64,000 nt of DNA from positions 1 through 64,000 of the forward strand of contig JACQDB010000161.1 of the NCBI GenBank assembly GCA_016201275.1, given 5' to 3'. The position numbers and the translations under genes are program-made. Under the pieces are notes generated by a model. It saw nothing but the letters and a program-made list of their open reading frames with translations, was not told the origin of the DNA and ran no database searches. This document shows, piece by piece, positions 7,037 to 50,991 of this stretch (its first letter is position 1; each line of letters opens with the position of its first letter). This DNA comes from Acidobacteriota bacterium. Its GTDB lineage: Bacteria; Acidobacteriota; Blastocatellia; UBA7656.

Positions 7037-7164
7037 ACTGCACCGCTCCAACACACCGGCCAAACGATTTCAGGTTTTCATCAGAGGCCGTTTGGTGGTT
7101 TGCCGATCAAGTTTTTTCAAGCGCAAGAACCGTGTCGCCGTGCAATTTTTAACCACGCGGTGTA

Positions 7165-7270
7165 GCGAGAGCGTGTCGCAGAATTTCAGCCACCGCCCAT
7201 ATGTTGTAGTTGGCTAAACCATCACCTACAATATCTGGACAAAACATTCATTTCTGCTACACGCTCTCGC
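7165..7270. repeat. Palindromic element family 1, copy 1
   Basis: A 106-bp near-perfect hairpin element with ends GCGAGAGCGTGTCGCAGAA (7165-7183) and, in complement, 7252-7270, with one mismatch. The interior (CCATATGTTGTAG...CTACAATATCTGG) matches the copies at 8829-8930 and 50890-50991. This copy lacks the TA termini of the other two. It occupies the spacer (7037-7398) between the exporter operon and the sigma-factor gene and could influence its transcription. I see nothing else in this spacer. Confidence 0.8.
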
Positions 7271-7398
7271 GACTTTTTCAACATCGCTCATGGTCTCACT
7301 CACAAAAATTATTTTTACTCACTAACTTTTTCGCCAGCGTTTGACTCTATATTCATGTGAGGCTATTGCAGCCGCGCAAAAATTGGTTCGGAGTAAGG

Positions 7399-7956
7399 AT
7401 GGCAAAGGCAAGCGCAGAACCGCCCGATGAAATCCTTGTGGTCGGGGCGATACTCGGCAGTCTGGATGCCTTCGATGAGTTGGCGTCGCGTTATCGCGCT
7501 GCGGCGGTGCGCGTGGCGCAAAGCATCGTCGGACGCGAGGACGCCGAAGACGTAGCGCAAGAGGCTTTGTTGCTGGCCTTCAAAGCCTTGCCTTCGATTG
7601 ACGAGCCGTCGAAGTTCGCTGCTTGGTTGTCGGCCATCACTCGCCATCGCGCCTTGCGCTTTGGCAAACGCGAAAGCCTGCACCAAGCCGGTCGCGTAGA
7701 ACTGGATGAAGTGCTGCTTGAAAATATCGCCGCCCTGTCGCGGCCTTTCGTGCAGCAAAGCTCAGAAGAATTGAATCGGGCGCTGGAAACGGTGGCACCG
7801 GATTACGCTTTGGTTTTGCGTATGCGGTTTCTTGACGAGATGCCTTTGAAACGCATCGCCGCGTTTTTAGGGGTGCCGGTTTCAACGGTGAAATGGCGCG
7901 TGCATCAGGGCAAAAAACTGCTGCGCGAAGCATTATTGAAAATCAGAGGTGAATAA
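7399..7956 (+). CDS. ECF RNA polymerase sigma factor
   Basis: A 185-residue sigma-70 family factor of the extracytoplasmic-function type. Sigma region 2 covers about residues 20-75 (LDAFDELASRYR...GREDAEDVAQEALLLAFKAL). Region 4 covers about 130-180 (DYALVLRMRFLDEMPLKRIA, VPVSTVKWRVHQGKKLL), the helix-turn-helix that reads the -35 box. ATG 7399 has GGAG at 7390-7393; an upstream start at 7357 would add 14 residues. The next gene starts directly after its TAA stop (7954-7956), the usual place of an anti-sigma gene, but that product has no recognisable anti-sigma motif. Confidence 0.9.
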   Translation: MAKASAEPPDEILVVGAILGSLDAFDELASRYRAAAVRVAQSIVGREDAEDVAQEALLLAFKALPSIDEPSKFAAWLSAITRHRALRFGKRESLHQAGRVELDEVLLENIAALSRPFVQQSSEELNRALETVAPDYALVLRMRFLDEMPLKRIAAFLGVPVSTVKWRVHQGKKLLREALLKIRGE

Positions 7957-8316
7957 ATGGAAAAAGAACAGGAGATCAAAAAATTGACCAGCGTGTTGCG
8001 GCGCATCGCTCGTTCGGCGAGTTATGCCGCCTGGTATAACGCCGCGCCGGACGCCGCCGCGTTTTGTGTCCGCCAATACAACGGCGTGCTGAAGCGCTTG
8101 ACCGAACTGGAACCGCAAGTTGCTCATGCCTTCGCGCCGCTTGCGGAAACGGCTTCGCCACAGGTGACGCGCCTGGTTGCGCGCGGACTCTGCGAATATT
8201 TTGCCGACCAGAGCGACGCGCAGGCCGCAAGAGAAGCGCCTTATCGCTCATTGCACACCGGCTGTTGGGGCGCAAAAAAAATGCGCCACGGCTGGGCGGC
8301 GTTCGGTCGCTGGTAA
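7957..8316 (+). CDS. Small protein of unknown function, paralogue of 8957-9415
   Basis: A 119-residue soluble protein that starts at the base after the sigma-factor stop, so translation is likely coupled. Its first 65 residues closely match the protein at 8957 (shared pattern: MExEQEIxKL, VLRR, AAFCVxQYNxVLxRLxEL). No membrane segment, zinc motif or known domain is visible. The region is probably helical. The C-terminal 30 residues (rich in Gly, Trp, Arg) do not match the paralogue and follow a run of eight A at about 8275-8282, so a frameshift or a recent divergence of the tail is possible. Position suggests an anti-sigma or co-regulatory role; this is inference. Confidence 0.7.
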   Translation: MEKEQEIKKLTSVLRRIARSASYAAWYNAAPDAAAFCVRQYNGVLKRLTELEPQVAHAFAPLAETASPQVTRLVARGLCEYFADQSDAQAAREAPYRSLHTGCWGAKKMRHGWAAFGRW

Positions 8317-8394
8317 GAAAGCCACAGCTAACCGTGGCGTGACCAATATCTGCAATAACGCTTTTGCCTGAGCAATGAAATAAGGAGGGCAACG

Positions 8395-8811
8395 ATGGCG
8401 GAAATGATTCGCGTAGCTTCGCTTGACGAGATGACCGAGACGATGGCGGTCTGCTTAAATCATCGAGACATTCCGTATTGCGTCATCAAATCCGGCGACA
8501 CCGTGCAAGCTTTCATTGCAGTCTGTCCGCACGAAAACAAAGTGATGAATCCGCCGTTGGTTCTTGATGGTTGCCTGGTCTGCCCTTTTCATAAGGTGGC
8601 TTTTGACGCAACGTCAGGCGCAGTACGAGAGGCGCGCAACAAGCGCCTCACCAAAGGGCTGTCGCCCGTGCAGACCGGAATTCTTGCCGGGGTGGTGTAT
8701 TTGCAGGCTCAAATCGAGCATCAGAGTTTTGCGCCCCTCAGCAAATGGCAACGCTTCATCAGAATATTCCGGCGTTTCGGGTTGCGCGCTACAAGTTTGG
8801 GCAAGGGTTGA
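8395..8811 (+). CDS. Rieske [2Fe-2S] domain protein
   Basis: A 138-residue soluble protein with both Rieske boxes: C44-P-H46 and C63-P-F-H66, which coordinate the 2Fe-2S cluster through two Cys and two His. It resembles stand-alone Rieske ferredoxins of dioxygenase or nitrite-reductase small-subunit type. The tail (residues 115-138) is basic and may be an interaction segment. A very good ribosome site (AAGGAGGG) precedes ATG 8395. It lies between the two paralogous small proteins and downstream of an ECF sigma factor, so electron transfer in a stress or redox response is plausible. No oxygenase partner is adjacent. Confidence 0.88.
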   Translation: MAEMIRVASLDEMTETMAVCLNHRDIPYCVIKSGDTVQAFIAVCPHENKVMNPPLVLDGCLVCPFHKVAFDATSGAVREARNKRLTKGLSPVQTGILAGVVYLQAQIEHQSFAPLSKWQRFIRIFRRFGLRATSLGKG

Positions 8812-8828
8812 AAGTAAAAGTTTATAGA

Positions 8829-8930
8829 TAGAGTCTGTCGCAGAATTCCAGAAACAGTCCATATCTTGTGGATGATTAAACCACCACATACAATATCTGG
8901 ACAGAAAATCCGTTTTTGCGACACCCTCTA
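8829..8930. repeat. Palindromic element family 1, copy 2
   Basis: A 102-bp palindromic element whose ends read TAGAGTCTGTCGCAGAA and, in complement, TAGAGGGTGTCGCAAAA. TA at both ends fits a TA target duplication of the IS630/mariner kind. The interior matches copies at 7165 and 50890. It lies between the Rieske gene and the second small paralogue, so copies 1 and 2 bracket the sigma-small protein-Rieske segment. Confidence 0.82.
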
Positions 8931-8956
8931 GTTAGCAATCACACAGGAGGTGTTGT

Positions 8957-9415
8957 ATGGAAAGAGAGCAAGAGATAGCGAAGTTGGTAAATGTATTGCG
9001 CCGCACATCGCGCATGGCTTTGCAATCGGAATGGACGGGCGGCGCGGCAGACACGGCGGCCTTTTGCGTCGAGCAATACAATCGCGTGTTGGCGCGTTTG
9101 AAAGAACTCGATGGCACGAATGTGGTCATCTTTGAACCGCTGGCGACGGGCAGTTCGTTGACCGTTGCGGCAATGGCCTGCCGACAACTGGCGGCATTTT
9201 ATGAAGACGAAGTGCCGCCGCAGCGAGGGGATCGCAAATGGACGAAAGAGATGCCGTTTTTTGATCCGCGACCCTTCAAAGAGTTCTGGGAAAAATCGGC
9301 GCGTGACATCGAAGACTTCGGCGAATATATACGCGAAAGCATCGAGGAATGGGCGCGTCAACGCCAAGCCAAAAGCGCCGACTCGCCGCCGAACCCTGAA
9401 CATAAACGCGATTGA
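8957..9415 (+). CDS. Small protein of unknown function, paralogue of 7957-8316
   Basis: A 152-residue soluble protein with a very strong ribosome site (AGGAGGTG at about 8946-8953). Residues 1-65 are homologous to the protein at 7957. The C-terminal half differs: it has an aromatic stretch (MPFFDPRPFKEFWEKSARD) and a charged helical tail. No known domain or catalytic motif is recognised. The duplicated N-terminal module beside an ECF sigma factor and a Rieske protein suggests a shared partner. A membrane role is unlikely because there is no hydrophobic segment. Confidence 0.75.
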   Translation: MEREQEIAKLVNVLRRTSRMALQSEWTGGAADTAAFCVEQYNRVLARLKELDGTNVVIFEPLATGSSLTVAAMACRQLAAFYEDEVPPQRGDRKWTKEMPFFDPRPFKEFWEKSARDIEDFGEYIRESIEEWARQRQAKSADSPPNPEHKRD

Positions 9416-9505
9416 AGAGATCACGCGCAGCCTTGCCGTTTAGAAATTCTCGGCAAAATCCGTAACCCCGAAGGGCAAAACCAACAGCGTCCCCGTTGTT
9501 GAAAA

Positions 9506-9545
9506 GCGGTCTCTGACTGTTGGAATTCCAACAGTCAGAGACCGC
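9506..9545. repeat. Perfect 40-bp palindrome without a spacer
   Basis: Bases 9506-9525 are the exact reverse complement of 9526-9545 (centre GGAATTCC; outer ends GCGGTCTCTG and CAGAGACCGC). It lies in the 9416-9769 spacer, where I see no gene. It may be a cruciform-forming element, the terminator of the upstream gene, or a relic related to the GCGGTC/GACCGC hairpins inside element family 2. Confidence 0.9.
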
Positions 9546-9769
9546 CGCTAGAGCAAAAATCTACAAGCCATCGCCTTTGCCAGTAATCGTTGACTGAGGT
9601 ACGTGATCCTTGGAACACACAGTGCAGAGAGAGGCACTATTTCCACAGAATCCCAACAATCAAAGTGAATTTTTGTTGACCAAAAAAAACGATATGATGC
9701 ACACCCGAAGTTCAAATCCAAAAGTAAAAAGGAAATTTAATTGAACCGAAAAACATAGCGATTGTTTCT

Positions 9770-10012
9770 ATGAGTGGCTTGGGTATGTTTGCCAAGCGAT
9801 TCGTCTTTCTTACACTCGTCGTTGCGGCGAGTCTTGTTTGTGGGGGATGTCCTGGCAATCAACCCTGTACCCATTGTGGGTATGCCGCTGGAGCAGATGT
9901 TCTCGTGCAAGCCCCAAATGGCATTCAGTATCGAATCACAGCCAATAGTCGTGGCTGTGCAAGTATCGGTCTTAATGATTGCAATGGACTTCGTTGGAAT
10001 GCTCTCGATTAA
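9770..10012 (+). CDS. Small Cys-rich secreted protein or lipoprotein
   Basis: An 80-residue reading frame with an N-terminal hydrophobic segment (FVFLTLVVAASLVCGG) that looks like a signal peptide, possibly ending at the Cys of VCGGC, which would be an atypical lipobox. The mature part is short and holds five more Cys, suggesting disulfides or metal binding. No domain is recognised. ATG 9785 is an alternative start, and neither start has a clear Shine-Dalgarno sequence. Base composition is more AT-rich than the neighbours, as for the next gene. It could be an orphan gene or spurious. Confidence 0.45.
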   Translation: MSGLGMFAKRFVFLTLVVAASLVCGGCPGNQPCTHCGYAAGADVLVQAPNGIQYRITANSRGCASIGLNDCNGLRWNALD

Positions 10013-10123: not shown

Positions 10124-11032
10124 ATGAAATCAAGAATGATGATGAAATATGGAAAGGTCGTTTTGACTATGAGTATGGTTATCGGGCTTGTTGTTTTGCT
10201 TGCCATGAAATGGAATCGAACGGCAAAAGGCGAACCATACTCGTTGCAAACCGTGCAGTTTTTGCAGGCAGGCATTGGCGCTCAAGCGCCGTGTCCAACC
10301 AGTAGCAGCAACTATCAAGTGCGGATCAACGGGGCTTTGTATTTTATGCAATGTCGCTCCGGGGTCACAGCAAGCCAAGCGGTTGTTGATAAACTGTCCG
10401 TTCTGGAATACCAAACTTTACCCGGTTCGTGCAATTCGTCAAATTGTTCTCGTTTAACGCGGGCGCAGGTAAAGAGCGTGATAACCGCAACCTTCATGAA
10501 TGTACTGAGCGCTTTGTCCGATGCTCAGATTGACGATATGTCACAAAACAGTTTGCGGGTGTTTCCGAATTATGCTCCCCCTGCCCGTATTGATCAGGTC
10601 AAGCTTATCGGCTCTCATGGAAATATGACCCCTGCTGAATTTGGACAAATGGCGTGGGATATACGCAGTTCGTATTCCTATCTCAGACCAATTGTTCAAA
10701 CGGAAATCGCTGCCTTGATAGACTCCAAGTTGGATATGCTGGCATATGCTTGCCCGGATTGGAATATGTCAACCTACTCACCTTATCAAGTCTATATGTT
10801 GGCGTACTCCTTAGCTCTTGATGACCATTTGGGACTGTCCATCACGGCTCTCAATCAGCGAATGAAAGAGATGGAAACTTATATCTACAACAACTGTAAC
10901 GGGCTGGTGTGTCCGTCCGAAGGCAAATGCGCGTTTGGCACTAACGGGTATATCTATAAAACCCCGGCGAACATCTTCTTCAGTGATGCGGTGCAAACCG
11001 ATTTATTAAACCGAATCAGTGCGCCCAATTAA
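10124..11032 (+). CDS. Hypothetical secreted or membrane-anchored protein
   Basis: A 302-residue protein with one N-terminal hydrophobic helix (VVLTMSMVIGLVVLLAMKW) after a short basic head, so it is exported or anchored. The rest is soluble, moderately helical, and carries eight Cys including CNSSNC and CPSEGKC, suggesting disulfides outside the cytoplasm. No family is recognised. GAGGTG precedes the ATG at good spacing. A strong terminator follows at 11060. Lower GC than the neighbours hints at lateral acquisition together with the small gene upstream. Confidence 0.7.
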   Translation: MKSRMMMKYGKVVLTMSMVIGLVVLLAMKWNRTAKGEPYSLQTVQFLQAGIGAQAPCPTSSSNYQVRINGALYFMQCRSGVTASQAVVDKLSVLEYQTLPGSCNSSNCSRLTRAQVKSVITATFMNVLSALSDAQIDDMSQNSLRVFPNYAPPARIDQVKLIGSHGNMTPAEFGQMAWDIRSSYSYLRPIVQTEIAALIDSKLDMLAYACPDWNMSTYSPYQVYMLAYSLALDDHLGLSITALNQRMKEMETYIYNNCNGLVCPSEGKCAFGTNGYIYKTPANIFFSDAVQTDLLNRISAPN

Positions 11033-50889: not shown

Positions 50890-50991
50890 TAGAGCGTGTC
50901 GCAGAATTCCAGAAATAGCCCATATGTTGTAGGTAGCTAAATCATCACATACAATATCTGGGCAGAAATTCTATTTCTGCGACACCTTCTA
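50890..50991. repeat. Palindromic element family 1, copy 3
   Basis: A 102-bp hairpin element from TAGAGCGTGTCGCAGAA to TTCTGCGACACCTTCTA, with TA ends flanked by AAT/TAATT. The interior matches copies at 7165 and 8829. The last three bases (50989-50991) are the complement of the TAG stop of nadA. Confidence 0.87.

Follow-up and report, generated by a model that had tools for sequence, protein, structure and literature searches.

In ECF operons, when the gene of a small soluble protein overlaps that of the sigma factor, the protein is usually taken to be the sigma factor's regulator. Several described systems come close to the locus studied here. In the account of ECF41 given in parts of PMC3426412, the sigma factor has just one detectable target, a gene or an operon, to which the sigma gene itself belongs where the two are cotranscribed; a conserved partner gene, encoding a COE-type enzyme, lies adjacent, and the sigma factor itself carries a fused C-terminal regulatory domain. 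The relevant sections of PMC8999054 describe SigX (ECF102), which regulates many genes and is encoded with CfrX, a small soluble protein proposed to be its regulator. Class I anti-sigma factors, including the soluble zinc anti-sigma (ZAS) proteins, are likewise small proteins encoded beside ECF sigma factors, and the divergence of the two partners is correlated (PMC7406223, in part); among them is ECF270, for which PMC8999054 lists an example from an Acidobacteria bacterium. The literature searched contained no paper that brought together Blastocatellia, sigma factor and ECF, nor, with the main ECF reclassification paper outside its scope, any description of the pair reported here: an ECF sigma factor and a small protein of a family that we call S. 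ECF41, with its single target, and the pair of SigX and the soluble CfrX are the nearest precedents, and the sigma-S unit varies the known ECF modules without amounting to a new kind of system.

The locus lies in a 64,000-nucleotide window (the whole stretch of DNA analysed) from a genome of 6.84 Mb that is 98.7% complete. Its four genes run on the forward strand in the order sigma factor, S1, Rieske protein and S2, as originally described. The sigma gene (7399..7956) encodes 185 amino acids from the ATG at 7399. The protein exceeds the Pfam cut-offs for Sigma70_r2 and Sigma70_r4_2 (E-values of 2.7e-12 for region 2 and 1.1e-11 for region 4) and scores 79.9 bits against the NCBIfam sigma70-ECF model, for which the cut-off is 42.9; twelve orthologues share 52–82% identity with it. 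Among the Pfam sigma models, it matches those of regions 2 and 4 alone, with no region 3, and no domain was found beyond these two regions. In this respect it differs from ECF41, with its fused regulatory domain. The sigma gene abuts S1 (7957..8316, + strand, 119 aa) without a gap, as had been claimed: the TAA stop codon occupies 7954–7956, and the ATG of S1 begins at 7957. S2 (8957..9415, + strand) encodes 152 amino acids. Just 3′ of S2, at 9506–9545, there is a perfect 40-nt palindrome with 20-nt arms and no loop. Farther downstream, neither a short, lipoprotein-like open reading frame (9770–10012) nor a 302-aa protein (10124–11032) had a credible match in Pfam or NCBIfam.

S1 and S2 are paralogues, being 43% identical over 101 residues (BLASTP, E 2e-23). 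The N-terminal module that they were predicted to share is thus real, although its length is nearer 85–90 residues than the 65 first assigned. The S2 type is the single form of S in genomes without a duplicate, and it has a long C-terminal helix bearing an IEDLGEFIRE-type motif. S1 lacks this helix and has a basic tail instead, which carries a net charge of +2 to +9 and contains one or two cysteines. A branch supported at 100/99 separates the S1 sequences (12 rows from two families) from the rest, as a clade that fits one old duplication; the gene order sigma-S1-S2 occurs in 12 genomes. We examined AlphaFold2 (AF2) models of both proteins. In that of S1, 67 of the 119 residues have a pLDDT of at least 90, and the tail (residues 93–119) falls below 50. 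The S2 model (mean pLDDT 67.8) repeats the three helices less confidently and continues into the long C-terminal helix, also modeled with low confidence. S is, then, predicted to fold as a bundle of three helices, with a tail that varies.

No credible known family for S emerged from Pfam, NCBIfam, PHROGs, PADLOC or the sequences of the PDB. The S1 and S2 proteins of the window had no Pfam match, and NCBIfam returned only WXG100 for S2, at E 0.06. Across 14 S2-type proteins, no value was better than 0.0027 (Pfam THBD), 0.0026 (PHROG 6355) or 0.06 (NCBIfam WXG100), each of these obtained for only one or two members; PADLOC matched none of the 14. Sequences from the PDB reached E 0.083 or worse, with interferon-gamma chains at the top. 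The absence of an anti-sigma motif from S1, which had been remarked upon at the outset, extends to profiles: no anti-sigma profile of Pfam or NCBIfam matched S1 or S2 of the window or any of the 14 S2-type proteins. A transmembrane-like stretch was found in none of 39 S proteins, and neither the Hx3Cx2C motif of ZAS proteins nor a CxxC motif occurs in any of the 39. S thus differs from the class I anti-sigma factors in lacking both a profile match and, in all 39 cases, Hx3Cx2C.

Fold comparisons did not place S either. Foldseek gave no match reaching E 0.001 for either model. The top VIA-align match of both was Bpa (PafE) of Mycobacterium tuberculosis; the top five rows for each model had Z-scores of 9.2–10.2 over 89–100 residues, below the level of about 13 at which this program becomes informative for common helical bundles, and another Bpa entry scored 5.3 against S2. 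Foldseek ranked Bpa first for S2 and third for S1, at E 0.98 or worse. Bpa has no sequence match to S. Nor was a 20S proteasome apparent: eight of nine genomes have a single PF00227 gene (HslV, in the genome of the window), and the ninth, G004, has a second, weak and partial match. A Bpa-like proteasome adaptor was therefore set aside. The listed fold matches of the S models include no anti-sigma chain, an absence that excludes nothing.

Searches for S were positive in 14 of 58 genomes (that of the window and its relatives), in 23 of 162 genomes of the class and in 11 of 396 genomes sampled from the phylum, four of the last belonging to one family of another class. Combined, these searches yielded 27 S-bearing genomes, that of the window included. 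In 25 of the 27, the gene immediately upstream of S is that of the sigma factor; we counted G496 among these, as the contig end that interrupts its operon leaves the sigma gene and the start of S1 on one contig. Approached from the other side, 22 of the 162 class genomes have a match to the sigma factor at E ≤ 1e-28, and all 22 have S. The 23rd S-bearing genome of the class, G041, has no such sigma factor, but it is 78% complete; there (L042, 4038–5432), S stands directly behind a SCO1-like gene, named by eye from its sequence. In the other exception, G234 (L105, 2018–2461), S adjoins a histidine kinase and a DUF2254 gene, and no sigma gene appears in the 8.5 kb read. The occurrence of S without an adjacent sigma factor in these two genomes suggests a function of its own. 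Where the spacing could be measured (24 operons), S starts 22–52 nt before the sigma stop codon in 16 and 0–48 nt after it in the other eight; a GAGGTGA-like ribosome site often precedes the S start. No neighbor besides sigma and S recurs in more than four of 28 stretches. S was found in no plasmid or phage, and none of 23 pattern matches in viral contigs was confirmed. The original prediction had suggested that the shared module may be a sigma-binding domain, an idea that would fall if most homologues lacked such a neighbor; for the sigma factor the distribution goes the other way, and the module belongs to a protein family tied to this ECF sigma factor.

Does S also diverge together with the sigma factor? 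Sequence distances for the two proteins correlate at 0.88 over 25 genomes. Using HslV as a housekeeping control in eight genomes, a small number, we obtained correlations of 0.84 for sigma and S, 0.66 for sigma and HslV and 0.68 for S and HslV, with a partial correlation of 0.70 for the sigma-S pair. For comparison, section 6 of PMC7406223 gives 0.82 for ECF/anti-sigma pairs and 0.5–0.6 for negative controls. The genome G305, of the other class, offers a hint that the pair possibly moved between classes together. Against three copies from f1, the family of the window, its sigma factor scores 58, 57 and 60%, and the f5–f7 copies, which are of the same class as f1, 50–57%; for S, the figures are 56, 58 and 56% vs. 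41–47%. HslV of G305 is no closer to f1 (62–66%, vs. 61–76% for f5–f7). This comparison (L103 of G305 with the window, L044, L046 and L049–L052) covers sequence distances for one genome of the other class.

We then considered the region upstream of the sigma gene. Alignment of 24 upstream regions revealed the motif CTAWCYTTT-N11-TGWCTCTATA, in whose position counts the row of G022 was misplaced. In the window, the predicted autoregulatory ECF promoter occupies 7322..7351 (+ strand) and consists of CTAACTTTT (−35-like), an 11-nt spacer and TGACTCTATA (−10-like). An AAC in the −35 region has been described for ECF promoters (PMC3426412); here its second A is present at most loci and is replaced by T in eight of the 24 rows. 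This combination of an AAC-type −35 and a conserved −10 element (TAWC...GWCTCTATA), a predicted promoter, precedes the sigma gene at all 24 testable loci with three or fewer mismatches, and at 22 of them with two or fewer. G495, whose locus is cut at a contig end, was left out.

The genome of the window contains a single exact match to a shorter version of the pattern and still only one match to the full pattern when two mismatches are allowed. We extended the scan to 48 genomes, comprising the 27 with S and 21 controls without S or the sigma factor. The exact shorter pattern matched 17 times, always upstream of the sigma gene, and had no match in any control genome; its reversed form matched twice. 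At two or fewer mismatches, matches outside the sigma promoter numbered two in the 27 S-bearing genomes (in G445 and G240) and three in the controls, as compared to 13 and four, respectively, for the reversed pattern. At three or fewer, there were 65 matches elsewhere in the S-bearing genomes vs. 159 for the reversed pattern, and 68 vs. 88 in the controls (32 vs. 72 without the outlier G033). Even at this tolerance, then, the 27 S-bearing genomes show no excess of matches outside the operon and no sign of a second target. Since there is no such excess, the regulon, as far as it is visible, consists of the operon alone; in silico, the sigma factor's single visible promoter is that of its own operon. 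A search of 7037–9770 for a sigma-70-like promoter found none, a weak result given that shuffling led us to expect 1.5. One target operon, recognized computationally, and a conserved partner gene beside the sigma gene are the features that recall ECF41, although the partner is S and not a COE-type enzyme.

Taken together, the linkage, promoter and coupling facts make S the dedicated partner of the sigma factor. To the fuller reading, which takes the unit for an autoregulated ECF module of one operon, with S as the cognate soluble regulator of the sigma factor and possibly also as its output, we would assign an even chance. The linkage, the conserved promoter, the restriction of that promoter to one locus and the duplication can be read directly from the sequences, and the steps of the mechanism build upon them. 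The sigma factor would use a single dedicated promoter to transcribe the operon that encodes it, as the conserved −35/−10 motif implies. Besides the sigma factor, the constant product of that operon is S, a putatively soluble helical protein, and the S gene in most cases begins within the 3′ end of the sigma gene. S would most likely bind the sigma factor and restrain or tune it, the negative sign being part of the supposition, and the loop would be switched on by a signal that S, or its C-terminal helix, perceives. Counting against this reading are the lack of any match to a known anti-sigma profile, the absence of Hx3Cx2C from all 39 S proteins, and the S genes of G041 and G234 with no sigma gene beside them. 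In the two families with a duplication, S2 keeps the full form, while S1, devoid of the C-terminal helix, ends in a short basic tail. The same arrangement of a sigma factor and a small soluble protein is found in SigX/CfrX, to which S is likened by description, and SigX differs in the many genes that it regulates.

S could alternatively be the output: the production of S (and S1) from a single promoter would be the purpose of the sigma factor, and S would act elsewhere in the cell. The lack of any excess of promoter matches outside the operon (65 vs. 159 reversed in the 27 S-bearing genomes) speaks for this possibility, as do the two of 27 genomes in which S has no adjacent sigma factor, the duplication and diversification of S, and the single-target precedent of ECF41 (PMC3426412, in part). 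Yet overlap with the sigma gene and near-strict co-occurrence are also seen with cognate regulators, and the control of the sigma factor would be left unexplained. We hold this account of S to be possible but improbable on its own terms. It does not compete outright with a regulatory role, as S may be both; if S were purely an anti-sigma factor and the sigma factor had no other target, the system would be left without an output. Only tentatively do we propose the closed loop that would unite the two: an ECF sigma factor whose only genomic promoter is its own, with S as both regulator and output, the genes being kept together in two Acidobacteriota classes.

A wider regulon, controlled by a conventional ECF/anti-sigma pair through promoters that diverge too far for a pattern search, seems to us unlikely. 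To be sure, only promoters of the sigma gene itself went into the motif, weaker sites can occur in ECF regulons, and two matches with two or fewer mismatches do occur elsewhere (G445 and G240). However, such matches exceed neither the controls (two in 27 genomes vs. three in 21) nor the reversed pattern (13 in 27), and no excess appears at three or fewer mismatches.

There remains the gene between S1 and S2. The Rieske [2Fe-2S] protein (8395..8811, + strand, 138 aa) exceeds the Pfam Rieske cut-off (34.5 bits, E 2e-8), and its cluster ligands are intact (CPH-x16-CPFH, i.e., CxH-x16-CxxH). No homologue of it was found in 27 stretches of 4–15 kb from the 26 other S-bearing genomes. A bare match to the ligand pattern in L055 was judged to be due to chance, as it falls in an opposite-strand frame that overlaps another open frame. 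In 57 relatives, a search at E ≤ 1e-6 found one match, with 31% identity over 72 aa of a 546-aa frame in G007; the genome of the window has seven other genes with Rieske domains. The original prediction had also drawn attention to two copies of a repeat that bracket the first three genes. These hairpin-forming copies of about 100 nt (7163..7267 and 8825..8929, strand unassigned, the second between the Rieske gene and S2) are present and 78% identical over 105 nt. A third copy lies in the window at 50891–50985, and the genome has at least 40, a lower bound obtained from 40 scored among 208 first-look candidates; no copy was found in 13 other stretches that we compared. With so many copies genome-wide, the bracketing of these genes is unremarkable, and the repeat was rejected as part of the module. 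Because the Rieske gene is absent beside the module elsewhere, has one weak match in relatives and neighbors a genome-wide repeat, it is best seen as an insertion, apparently local and lineage-specific, outside the conserved module. It and the common repeat may simply be co-transcribed with S1 and S2. The suggestions that the shared module partners the Rieske protein and that the whole forms a redox-responsive unit fail accordingly, with nothing to indicate a redox role. S1 and S2 do flank the Rieske gene, all three are read in the same direction, and no terminator-like site occurs on the + strand from the S1 stop to the S2 start. Even so, joint action of the Rieske protein and S in one unit is highly improbable and is rejected by distribution, given the adjacency of a Rieske gene in none of the 26 other S-bearing genomes, the one weak match to this Rieske protein in 57 relatives and the lack of Hx3Cx2C or CxxC in all 39 S proteins.

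Our preferred reading, the autoregulated module with S as cognate regulator, bears on a broader gap, as some ECF sigma factors have no recognized regulator nearby. S, a family absent from the libraries searched, is a clear candidate partner family for one such sigma factor, and the precision of the predicted promoter renders both binding and activity directly testable. If the sigma factor serves only its own operon, the unit would be a compact natural feedback switch, and it would provoke a question: why should a cell maintain a dedicated sigma factor for one transcript?
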